Shown here: in pieces, positions 14,769 to 61,055 of the stretch
How the letters are laid out: every line of letters starts with the position of its first letter
Position numbering within the stretch: position 1 is the stretch's first letter
Source of the DNA: Myroides phaeus
GTDB lineage: Bacteria; Bacteroidota; Bacteroidia; Flavobacteriales; Flavobacteriaceae
DNA length: 64,000 nucleotides
Direction: 5' to 3'
Assembly: GCF_009799805.1 (NCBI RefSeq)
Contig: NZ_CP047050.1
Span: 1 to 64,000 of the forward strand
The notes under the pieces: model-generated
The model's database searches: none
Told to the model about the DNA's origin: nothing
The model's input: only the letters and a program-made list of their open reading frames with translations
Made by a program: the position numbers and the translations under genes

Positions 14769-15004
14769 TATTTTCACCTTTTTTTATTTCCTAAGAGTAG
14801 TTCGCAATAATTACTACTTTACTTATAATCTTCAAAAACACTTGCGATAAGCGATTTACACCTAAGTGGATTCCCTTAAACCAAAACAAATCGATAAAGA
14901 ATAAAAACACTAAACGCATAGTTGGCCCCTATTTCTCAAAAAGCCTCAATTTGGCTGTAAGTCAGTAACCACGCCACTTTCAATGGTTTCCTATGGGAAT
15001 TAAT

Positions 15005-15110
15005 CGTAAATGAGTCGTAAATAAGTCGTATTTCGTTCGCGAAAAAGGCCTTTAGGTGAGGTATCTACGACTTATCTCCGAGTTATCTTCGACTAATGTA
15101 CATATGAGGT
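15005..15110. repeat. Dispersed 11-bp-periodic palindromic element, copy A
   Basis: Left half: CGTAAATGAGT, CGTAAATAAGT, CGTATTTCGTT (15005-15037). Core AAAAAGGCCTTT at 15042-15053. Right half: ACGACTTATCT, CCGAGTTATCT, TCGACTAATGT, ACATATGAGGT (15067-15110). The halves are inverted copies (ATAAGTCGTA against TACGACTTAT, centred 22-23 bases from the core centre). Every unit is exactly 11 bp. Confidence 0.85.
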
Positions 15111-15180
15111 TATGACAATCCCTTTGTTTATAAGGGATTGCGAACAGTTGAGTGCAAAAGTAGGACAGAGTTAATAGTGC

Positions 15181-15210
15181 ATTTGATGTCATTTGATAGC
15201 AAATGATGTC
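15181..15210. promoter_or_regulatory. Three 10-bp tandem units with an internal dyad
   Basis: ATTTGATGTC, ATTTGATAGC and AAATGATGTC in direct tandem; the centre also forms CATTTG-N4-CAAATG. They lie about 40 bases before a TAATTTTG promoter element and a 67-codon frame, so they look like an operator array. Confidence 0.45.
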
Positions 15211-15283
15211 AAAATAACCACTTTGAAAAAAAGTATTTGCCGTTAGTATTAATTTTGCTTTAGAAACTACAAACACAGGAATT

Positions 15284-15487
15284 ATGATTCAATTTTACAC
15301 AACACACCAAAAAACATTATATGCTCAATCCTCTTATAAACTCCCGATCACTTATACCACAAAAAGCCGTTGTGATTCTATGTTAATCCAGTATATGCAG
15401 GGAATATATTTCTTAGCTAACCTCCCTAACCCGAGTTTAAAAAGAATAACACAACAACGCAATACAAGCGCCCCATTCCTGGTTTAA
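15284..15487 (+). CDS. Doubtful small ORF, 67 residues, unknown
   Basis: Not recognised. The frame starts ATGATTCAATTT 27 bases after a TAATTTTG promoter-like element and behind an operator-like array, which favours a real transcript. The product is polar with many Thr, Tyr and Gln, one Cys, and no membrane segment or clear fold. It lies between copies A and B of the dispersed 11-bp element. It could equally be a remnant of a gene lost between the two copies. Confidence 0.3.
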   Translation: MIQFYTTHQKTLYAQSSYKLPITYTTKSRCDSMLIQYMQGIYFLANLPNPSLKRITQQRNTSAPFLV

Positions 15488-15544
15488 ATACAGTTACAGC
15501 CTACTTTCAGACAATACAACGTCCTATACTGTCCGTAACTGGTT

Positions 15545-15640
15545 CTAAACATAGACCACACAAATTCGACACTCCTTCGGAAAAAAGGCCTTTTTCCGAA
15601 CTTATCCCGAACATATCTCGAAGATGTCCCGAACATGGTC
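15545..15640. repeat. Dispersed 11-bp-periodic palindromic element, copy B
   Basis: The core palindrome TTCGGAAAAAAGG / CCTTTTTCCGAA lies at 15576-15600. Right-hand units ACTTATCCCGA, ACATATCTCGA, AGATGTCCCGA, ACATGGTCCTA follow at exact 11-bp steps; left-hand units (CTAAACATAGA, CCACACAAATT, CGACACTCCTT) keep the same step. The right end AGATGTC-C-CGAACATGGT plus TTAAAACT is shared with copy D 44 kb away. Confidence 0.85.
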
Positions 15641-15716
15641 CTATTAAAACTCCCCTTATTCTACTCTTTAATCCCTATTGACAATCGCCTAATTCAGAGA
15701 AAATCGCCCATAAAAA

Positions 15717-43605: not shown

Positions 43606-43702
43606 AATTCTCTGACAATAGTCCGACTATCCTCCGAGAATACTGGCTTGAGAACTATTTTGTCGGACAATAGTCAGAGGACCCTCGAAGGAATCTCACA
43701 CT
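43606..43702. repeat. Dispersed 11-bp-periodic element, copy C (variant centre)
   Basis: Left arm CTCTGACAATAGTCCGAC (43610-43627) and right arm GTCGGACAATAGTCAGAG (43662-43679) pair at 16 of 18 positions as an inverted repeat, and share GACAATAGTC as a direct repeat. 11-bp steps continue on the right (CTCGAAGGAAT, CTCACACTATC). Its centre is CTTGAGAACTATTTT, without the GGCC core of the other copies. Confidence 0.65.
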
Positions 43703-59824: not shown

Positions 59825-60039
59825 ATTTATATTTCCACAATTTAGGAACAGAAAGCAAGGAATTTAAGCTCGCAAAAAAGAAATATCTTTAAAATGGTAT
59901 TAAATCAATGACCTACTTTAGTACTATCTATAGAAAATAACCAGACCTGGCTAATAATTGTTATTTAATACTCCTATTAACTAAAAGAACAGCCTTTAAA
60001 GTATTGTCATTACAAGCTTCTTTTATACATATTCCACAC

Positions 60040-60133
60040 AAACACTACACAAGTACCACACATCTTCGAGAAAAAGGCCTTTTTTCCGAGCCTCTGTGGT
60101 ACTTATGTGGTAGATGTCTCGAACATAGTGCGT
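60040..60133. repeat. Dispersed 11-bp-periodic palindromic element, copy D
   Basis: Core TCGAGAAAAAGG / CCTTTTTTCCGAG at 60066-60090. AAGTACCACA (60051-60060) and TGTGGTACTT (60095-60104) are perfect inverses whose centres are each 22 bases from the core centre. Units TGGTACTTATG, TGGTAGATGTC, TCGAACATAGT follow at 11-bp steps. The right end matches copy B (AGATGTC-Y-CGAACATRGT, then TTAAAACT). Confidence 0.85.
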
Positions 60134-60411
60134 TTAAAACTACACTTTGATATGTACATTATCGCAAGTACAAGCCAATGCTTTAAATTTTAAATATTCG
60201 TTTATTTTATTTCTTATAGAACCGTGTTGTTCATATTTAGTTTCTAACGTTTATATTTAAGTTCTTCTTCTTTTTTTGATTAGCTAAACTTTAGACATAA
60301 ACAAAACCTATAGGTTTAATCCTGTAAAGTTGCAAATAGAAATGTATTCGAAAAGACTACTATAATTGAAGCACTTTCAACACTATAAAATGAAAAGTAT
60401 AGATATAAAAA

Positions 60412-60442: not shown

Positions 60443-60517
60443 TGGGCGATGAGGGATTCGAACCCCCGACCCCCTCGGTGTAAACGAGGTGCTCTGAACC
60501 AACTGAGCTAATCGCCC
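60443..60517 (-). tRNA. tRNA-Val (anticodon TAC), copy 6 of array order
   Basis: Minus strand: acceptor GGGCGAT/ATCGCCC, D loop AGCTCAGTTGGTT, anticodon loop TTTACAC with TAC, T arm GGTTCGAACCC, discriminator A. Last in transcription order. CCA not encoded. Confidence 0.97.
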
Positions 60518-60546
60518 AAATTATTGTAAAATAACTTGAGTTATTG

Positions 60547-60621
60547 TGGGCGATGAGGGATTCGAACCCCCGACCCCCTCGGTGTAAACGAGGTGCTCTG
60601 AACCAACTGAGCTAATCGCCC
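60547..60621 (-). tRNA. tRNA-Val (TAC), copy 5
   Basis: Identical in all 75 bases to its neighbours; 29-base spacer on its left. Confidence 0.97.
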
Positions 60622-60651
60622 AAATTATTTATAAAATAATTTGCATTATTG

Positions 60652-60726
60652 TGGGCGATGAGGGATTCGAACCCCCGACCCCCTCGGTGTAAACGAGGTG
60701 CTCTGAACCAACTGAGCTAATCGCCC
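60652..60726 (-). tRNA. tRNA-Val (TAC), copy 4
   Basis: Identical copy; 30-base spacer on its left. Confidence 0.97.
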
Positions 60727-60755
60727 AAATTATTGTAAAATAATTTGTATTATTG

Positions 60756-60830
60756 TGGGCGATGAGGGATTCGAACCCCCGACCCCCTCGGTGTAAACGA
60801 GGTGCTCTGAACCAACTGAGCTAATCGCCC
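60756..60830 (-). tRNA. tRNA-Val (TAC), copy 3
   Basis: Identical copy; 29-base spacer on its left. Confidence 0.97.
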
Positions 60831-60859
60831 AAATTATCGTAAAATAATTTGCATTATTG

Positions 60860-60934
60860 TGGGCGATGAGGGATTCGAACCCCCGACCCCCTCGGTGTAA
60901 ACGAGGTGCTCTGAACCAACTGAGCTAATCGCCC
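60860..60934 (-). tRNA. tRNA-Val (TAC), copy 2
   Basis: Identical copy; 29-base spacer on its left. Confidence 0.97.
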
Positions 60935-60980
60935 AAATTATTTTTTAATTTGGATATTTCAATATGTCAAGAAAAAGTTG

Positions 60981-61055
60981 TGGGCGATGAGGGATTCGAA
61001 CCCCCGACCCCCTCGGTGTAAACGAGGTGCTCTGAACCAACTGAGCTAATCGCCC
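60981..61055 (-). tRNA. tRNA-Val (TAC), copy 1 (promoter-proximal)
   Basis: Identical copy; its spacer to copy 2 is longer (46 bases) and different from the others. First in transcription order. Confidence 0.97.

Follow-up and report, generated by a model that had tools for sequence, protein, structure and literature searches.

Dispersed arrays of inverted 11-bp units in Myroides phaeus and other Flavobacteriales: conserved spacing, drifting letters and a link to DUF6266 genes

The element in the window and in the Myroides phaeus genome

The window analysed here comprises the first 64 kb of the Myroides phaeus genome (G000), which is a single contig of 3,107,673 bp. Copy A, an A-type array on the forward strand at about 14993-15104, has its core, TTCGCGAAAAAGGCCTTTAGG, at 15036; its left units are TCGTAAATGAG and TCGTAAATAAG and its right units, read on the other strand, TCGGAGATAAG and TCGAAGATAAC, the two halves being inverted. 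Copy B is a B-type array, also on the forward strand (about 15539-15652, core TTCGGAAAAAAGGCCTTTTTCCGAA at 15576), made up of the units TTCGACACTCC, CTTATCCCGAA, CATATCTCGAA and GATGTCCCGAA. Both were recovered by BLAST and by profile at the positions given in the first-pass annotation, which had also correctly described the 11-bp step as running through them without insertions or deletions; matches elsewhere in the genome and profile scores place them beyond chance. Profiles of the copies, which include the window copies themselves, score 93-110 bits on these, while 20 windows shuffled by a Markov-1 model never exceed 7.4 bits. Significance belongs to the element as a whole and not to its bare core: allowing up to two mismatches, AAAARGGCCTTTTT occurs 9 times in the window where 4.5 occurrences are expected, a number equalled or exceeded in 9 of 100 shuffles. 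Rfam at gathering thresholds returned only tRNAs in the window, in line with the initial impression that no named family matches.

Of the two related copies announced elsewhere in the window, the one near 60.1 kb is genuine, while the one near 43.6 kb is not a clear member. The former, a B-type array with TACCACACAAG words (60029-60142, forward strand; BLAST and profile), lies beyond the 3' end of a six-gene tRNA-Val array on the reverse strand (60443-61055), whose near-identical tandem genes are about 104 bp apart; arrays of seven tRNA-Gly genes (L045) and four tRNA-His genes (L009) also adjoin copies in this genome. The latter (43614-43689, forward strand) reaches 5.2 bits with the B profile (E 0.59). 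In the stretch 43609-43690, TCCGA recurs at 11-bp intervals and an imperfect inverted repeat (GACAATAGTCCGAC / GTCGGACAATAGTC) is present, but the core is missing; this is perhaps a decayed or distant relative.

A clear excess of copies was found across the genome; together with the Rfam result and the lack of RAYT matches in this genome, it upholds the observation against the refuting conditions set in the first-pass annotation. BLAST returned 22 matches for copy A, 39 for copy B and 57 for the 60.1-kb copy, numbers that cover both strands, so that palindromic copies are often counted twice; the copy A query corresponds to 16 distinct places, and the other two queries retrieve overlapping sets. 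Combining a sequence-only model (R1), pattern matches and BLAST gives at least 48 B-type and at least 16 A-type places, or at least 57 sites when neighbours within 1 kb are merged, all of these being lower bounds. The description of the element as dispersed and intergenic is borne out: among 40 B copies checked, 36 lie between ORFs, two overlap an ORF of 100 aa or more and two are at locus edges. The 36 placed copies are found between convergent (14), divergent (6) and codirectional (16) genes, with no preference for sites upstream of genes.

The first-pass annotation missed that A and B of the window form one unit, in which an A copy is followed by a 10-bp array, promoter-like boxes and a B copy. 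Indeed, A and then B are found in like orientation, about 390-540 bp apart, at seven places in the genome. The 10-bp direct-repeat array, here called the P module (TGATGTCATT / TGATAGCAAA / TGATGTCAAA ATAACC), was located from sequence and by BLAST at 15180-15219 on the forward strand; the end of the module lies 178-194 bp from the A core. By BLAST, P is present at 13 places, all adjoining an A copy, five of them upstream of rRNA operons and eight elsewhere; three A copies are without it. Of the five rRNA loci that have an A copy, three (L141, L142 and L144) consist of two operons in tandem, with the A copy, within the stretches inspected, before the first operon only. On the forward strand P is followed, at 15221-15257, by the boxes CTTTG (15221-15225) and TAATTTTG (15250-15257), which we take to resemble the Bacteroidota -33/-7 promoter consensus, making this a putative promoter. 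Boxes of the form CTTT(G) and TAnnTTTG follow P in 10 of the 11 copies in which P was recognized by a strict regular expression; this expression missed P at L013 and L014, where BLAST detected it.

Between P and B lies a 67-codon forward-strand ORF (15284-15487; MIQFYTTHQK...), which may be fortuitous. The same stretch is unlike its counterparts in the units at L003, L005 and L007-L010, and the P-to-B stretch is alike solely among four recent duplicates; these four A-P-B units are near-identical and are embedded in unrelated flanks.

Layout of the units and conservation of their spacing

The layout of the element was established on 44 distinct cores from other species. Of their 88 arms, 77 have TTCG at a distance of 11 bp outwards from the core, 58 at 22 bp, 49 at 33 bp and only four at 44 bp; all remaining offsets between 4 and 60, 53 in number, account for 11 occurrences together. 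Since TTCG falls at 11, 22 and 33 bp and seldom elsewhere, a layout of four plus four 11-bp units is indicated. For most of these cores the search pattern itself required a unit at 11 bp but left the positions at 22 and 33 bp free, hence it is the latter two that are informative on phase. The core measures 26 bp in 42 of the 44 cases and 25 bp in the other two. The element, about 92 bp in all, thus has four 11-bp units on either side of a variable centre of about 4 bp, the two sets being inverted (4+4). In the B copies of M. phaeus the words of the left arm are mainly TACC or TTCG and those of the right arm mainly CGAA, GGTA or GGGA. At one locus of another genome (L306, G545 C12) two arrays are found 1.2 kb apart, at 180.4 and 181.6 kb, inside a longer duplicated non-coding stretch.

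Comparison with a second genome, G208, allowed the evolution of spacing and of letters to be followed separately. Strong matches to G000 loci, flanks included, were found for 38 of the 42 G208 loci, and the remaining four may have orthologues too; the flanks of orthologous copies are mostly 92-98% identical. In the 32 pairs that were aligned (the partial copy L045 and five other pairs were left out), substitutions affect 284 of 2364 array positions (12.0%; 9 to 46 bp from the centre), 1173 of 8953 flank positions (13.1%; 60 to 210 bp) and 37 of 606 core positions. In several orthologues a whole word appears by eye to have been switched at once, by a double change between CGAA and GGTA.

Length changes follow a different rule. 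The flanks contain 89 indels (9.9 per kb) with sizes from 1 to 65 bp, three of them of 11 bp; at this rate 23.5 indels would be expected in the arrays, where six gap events are seen. In four of these the difference is exactly 11 bp, each time in the left arm and with G208 the longer; the other two are a cancelling +4/-4 pair in a single copy, which vanishes with a slightly stiffer gap penalty. Seven A pairs are gap-free, and the cores show four indels of 1 bp each. The Poisson probability of no phase-breaking event is 6e-11 and, when all six events are counted, that of six or fewer is 2e-5. Because the only net changes in array length are of exactly 11 bp, where about 23 indels were expected, spacing is constrained and sequence barely so. 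Slippage of units could produce the 11-bp differences; it does not account for the missing indels of other sizes. The earlier suggestion that spacing rather than sequence may be under selection is upheld both by the orthologues and by the cross-species phase test.

The two arms of a copy show no clear covariation, which speaks against a hairpin. Their complementarity within a copy averages 20.7 of 33 positions, against 20.3 for arms shuffled between copies (z 1.6, P 0.07 for 39 copies; z 1.2, P 0.13 for 19 deduplicated copies), the core-proximal unit alone giving a hint of partner matching (z 1.87, P 0.04). RNAalifold yields nearly no consensus structure (6 pairs, -0.26 kcal/mol), from an alignment in which the core is shifted by one base in part of the rows, so that some pairs may be hidden.

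Distribution and association with DUF6266 genes

Of 398 genomes in the GTDB genus, 13 contain the strict pattern, one of them (G207) by what looks like a chance match in coding sequence; among 395 genomes from the order it is present in 14, namely our own and 13 of one other family, for a total of five genera counting our own. The reversed pattern, used as a control, gave six single matches in the genus set and three in the order set. A profile built on cross-species copies (R2) matched 12 of the 15 genomes searched with it, with the highest numbers, over both strands, of 46 in G311, 35 in G138, 21 in G148 and 17 in G173; G010, G022 and G004 gave no match. In a collection of species representatives, from which records near our own may be left out, the pattern was found in Myroides phaeus DSM 23313 only, in five stretches. 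The same architecture is present in two families of Flavobacteriales.

A gene matching DUF6266 (PF19781) adjoins several copies, with two short N-terminal stretches scoring below the cut-off. Among 58 genomes, DUF6266 was found in 21 of 26 array-positive and in 6 of 32 array-negative ones (Fisher p 3.5e-6); 25 of the positives were defined by the strict pattern and one (G013) by R2, and the 32 negatives were hand-picked. One of the six DUF6266-bearing "negatives", G018, does carry an array upstream of its DUF6266 gene (L333), while five array-positive genomes (G142, G097, G549, G562 and G661) have no DUF6266 match. At 21 of 30 DUF6266 loci an array is found upstream, its centre about 190-410 bp from the DUF6266 match; two of these 21 belonged to the training set of the profile. 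The profile detected no array at the other nine (L314, L315, L330, L332, L336, L337, L338, L340 and L342); among these, L330 has a weaker array (E 0.002) and at L342 the contig, by eye, seems to stop within the last unit. An array downstream of DUF6266 is found at L325 only, where it is a second copy 1.2 kb away. The two DUF6266 genes found in M. phaeus, which lie outside the window at 2,133,485-2,134,057 (reverse strand) and 2,190,831-2,191,412 (forward strand), have an upstream array, the second one being weaker (E 2e-6).

The stretch between array and DUF6266 has a periodicity of its own. The array was located in 21 cases, 14 of which leave a segment of 60 bp or more for this analysis; in these 14 the mean z is 3.8 at a period of 10 bp and 3.0 at 20 bp, and from -0.9 to 0.7 at the others; z exceeds 2.5 at 10 bp in 10 of the 14, revealing 10-bp direct repeats. 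At L323 about 14 tandem 10-bp units (GGACAAAACT, GGACATTAGT...) can be counted by eye between array and gene. In G018 the stretch upstream of DUF6266 (TCAAATGATATCAAAATAATC) closely resembles the P module of M. phaeus, and for this reason P is read as a control region of the DUF6266 type.

The named DUF6266 homologues come from Flavobacterium phycosphaerae, Chryseobacterium and Elizabethkingia. A structural model (pLDDT 89) predicts a glycine-rich N-terminal part with helices and a C-terminal domain resembling fibronectin III. Genes for a DNA methyltransferase, HsdM, SIR2, cas6 and ArdA, picked by eye, lie within about 1.5 kb of DUF6266 genes, and neighbours of defence or restriction type were noted at L333, L343, L321, L325, L328, L319, L070 and L335. 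A search of a literature library found no paper on DUF6266 or on an element of this kind.

A second gene, coding a small winged-helix protein, is present near 13 of the 30 DUF6266 loci, and none was found within about 1.5 kb of the other 17. Seven members were tested and match HTH_17 (PF12728) above the cut-off; a profile built from these seven found the six others, with matches, among 343 loci (many of them overlapping), at DUF6266 loci only. In 10 of the 13 cases the HTH_17 gene is upstream of DUF6266 and codirectional with it. No HTH_17 gene was found in the M. phaeus loci examined nor in the window (best E 0.96).

A possible mode of recognition and its alternatives

Small winged-helix (wHTH) proteins offer a precedent for DNA recognition by spacing. 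As described in reports on these proteins (PMC5859096, PMC7498355, PMC11963761), BldC and Apl bind cooperatively to repeats about one helical turn apart, and BldC and RdfS form head-to-tail oligomers; a lone Apl site is weak, and for RdfS no consensus motif is evident. The exact 11-bp step of the element and the adjoining 10-bp array likewise place repeats about one turn apart, a likeness shared with the sites of BldC, lambda Xis, phage 186 Apl and RdfS according to the same sources; such proteins bind cooperatively head-to-tail, and here a small wHTH gene is found near many of the DUF6266-linked copies as a putative reader.

On this basis we tentatively favour, at somewhat less than even confidence, the reading of the copies as operator arrays for a cooperative filament of BldC/Xis-like wHTH proteins, with HTH_17 as the likely reader. 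Each copy would be a DNA operator array of 4+4 inverted, weak 11-bp sites around the centre of about 4 bp, and one protomer of a small winged-helix protein would occupy each unit. Protomers would touch head-to-tail on one face of the helix, as do those of BldC, lambda Xis and phage 186 Apl, so as to form two short filaments running towards the centre of the array. The binding energy would come mainly from contacts between protomers at fixed spacing, so the letters could drift and words toggle between CGAA and GGTA; an indel would break the filament unless it amounted to a whole unit. Such a mode predicts free letters, fixed spacing and changes by whole units only, as observed. The likely reader would be the HTH_17 protein encoded near many DUF6266 loci, and the array together with the adjoining 10-bp direct array would constitute the control region of DUF6266 genes. 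In M. phaeus modules of this kind precede rRNA operons at five loci and are found at eight further sites, and B-type arrays are scattered over dozens of intergenic positions. Binding of the arrays by HTH_17, the filament and any regulatory effect are what we infer from this set of observations.

Some features count against the filament reading. The M. phaeus loci examined and the window gave no HTH_17 match, five of the 26 array-positive genomes gave none to DUF6266, 17 of the 30 DUF6266 loci have no nearby HTH_17 gene, and the count of HTH_17 genes draws on a profile built from seven of the loci counted. The operators described for such proteins in the reports cited above are direct arrays, unlike the two arrays found here, which are inverted about a fixed centre, typically 4+4, and dispersed by the dozen; the repeats in the BldC crystal, according to the same reports (PMC5859096, PMC7498355, PMC11963761), are of 9 bp, which disfavours a reading of BldC type. 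B-type copies show no preference for the upstream side of genes, and the four 11-bp differences share one arm (the left) and one direction (longer in G208), a pattern that slippage could also produce.

Among the alternatives, the one that survives best, though we consider it unlikely, is that of a miniature mobile element of MITE or REP type that a transposase has spread, perhaps with DUF6266 or one of its neighbours as mobilising partner; the phase would then be inherited structure and the length changes slippage of units. Such an origin agrees with the large number of scattered copies (dozens), whose ends in many cases resemble GTTTTAAAC...GTTTAAAAC (variable, by eye), with the four duplicated A-P-B units in unrelated flanks and with the combination of one gene and many solo copies, which recalls RAYT-REP. 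However, the matching of G208 loci together with their flanks leaves little room for recent movement, so that the small mobile repeat proposed in the first-pass annotation is possible by origin but shows little sign of having moved recently; no clear target-site duplication was seen at the four duplicate units, the array keeps to the upstream side of DUF6266 (apart from the second copy at L325), and slippage fails to explain the lack of other indel sizes. The element shares with REP/RAYT systems, as described in PMC2817692, an extragenic position, a palindromic structure, a high copy number and one linked gene family; it differs in consisting of 92 bp of 11-bp units instead of short palindromes headed by GT(A/G)G, and in its linked gene: DUF6266 carries the array on one side, where RAYT genes are flanked by two inverted REPs, and clearly matches no Pfam family but its own. 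RAYT (PF01797) has no match in G000 or in G173 and eight in the array-free G022. Membership in the REP/RAYT family was rejected on the missing PF01797 match in G000 and G173 and on the lack of a short GT(A/G)G-headed palindrome.

Plasmid parC sites, bound by ParR, consist of sets of 11-bp repeats, and their arrangement on both sides of a centre is like that of the element, whose copies differ in being dispersed and chromosomal. An array for nucleoid organization, segregation or topology, either parC/ParR-like or made of supercoil-absorbing sites near rRNA operons, is nonetheless quite improbable. The merged sites, at least 57, are more evenly spaced than random (CV 0.68 against 0.98, P about 0.001), a result that is provisional because the list of sites is a lower bound, and A copies stand at five rRNA loci; on the other side, the strongest cross-species association found is that with DUF6266, and the strict pattern is missing from most relatives (present in 13 of 398 genomes in the genus). 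Of the three guesses of the first-pass annotation a binding array is the best, though the association found is one with DUF6266 and HTH_17 genes rather than a nucleoid or segregation role.

Its third guess, structured RNA, or a cruciform, in which the arms would make a long hairpin, a terminator or a processing site and 11 bp would be one A-form turn, is very unlikely, since arm complementarity stays near the shuffled level and the consensus fold is minimal, even if every copy is an imperfect palindrome, a few orthologues are by eye more palindromic near the core and the core-proximal unit hints at pairing. ERIC, RU-1 and similar elements are likewise intergenic, dispersed, imperfectly palindromic and about 100-130 bp long, and ERIC of E. 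coli is predicted to form one long stem-loop, according to reports on them (PMC2267715, PMC2759123); here it is the unit step that is kept, in arms without clear covariation. A folding repeat of ERIC type was rejected, as the arm test and RNAalifold gave no shared stem-loop conserved across copies.

Returning to the filament reading, dispersed palindromic repeats and wHTH operator arrays are known kinds of element, but we could match to no known system an inverted 4+4 array of conserved spacing that is combined with a 10-bp array and DUF6266. It is possible, though doubtful, that all this amounts to an undescribed system of Flavobacteriales, in which a spacing-coded 4+4 array and a 10-bp array would be read by an HTH_17 filament and would control DUF6266, a predicted two-part protein with a fibronectin-III-like C-terminal fold, sometimes encoded beside restriction or defence genes; in Myroides the array would have spread to rRNA promoters and intergenic sites as a phase-coded network.

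The element offers an unusually clean natural case in which selection appears to hold spacing while letters drift about as those of the flanks do, at dozens of loci, and two families share the architecture; geometry-coded recognition of DNA thereby becomes directly testable. The architecture of the control region and the linked wHTH gene provide a first handle on DUF6266, and the A copies at rRNA loci raise a testable question on the control of rRNA in Myroides.
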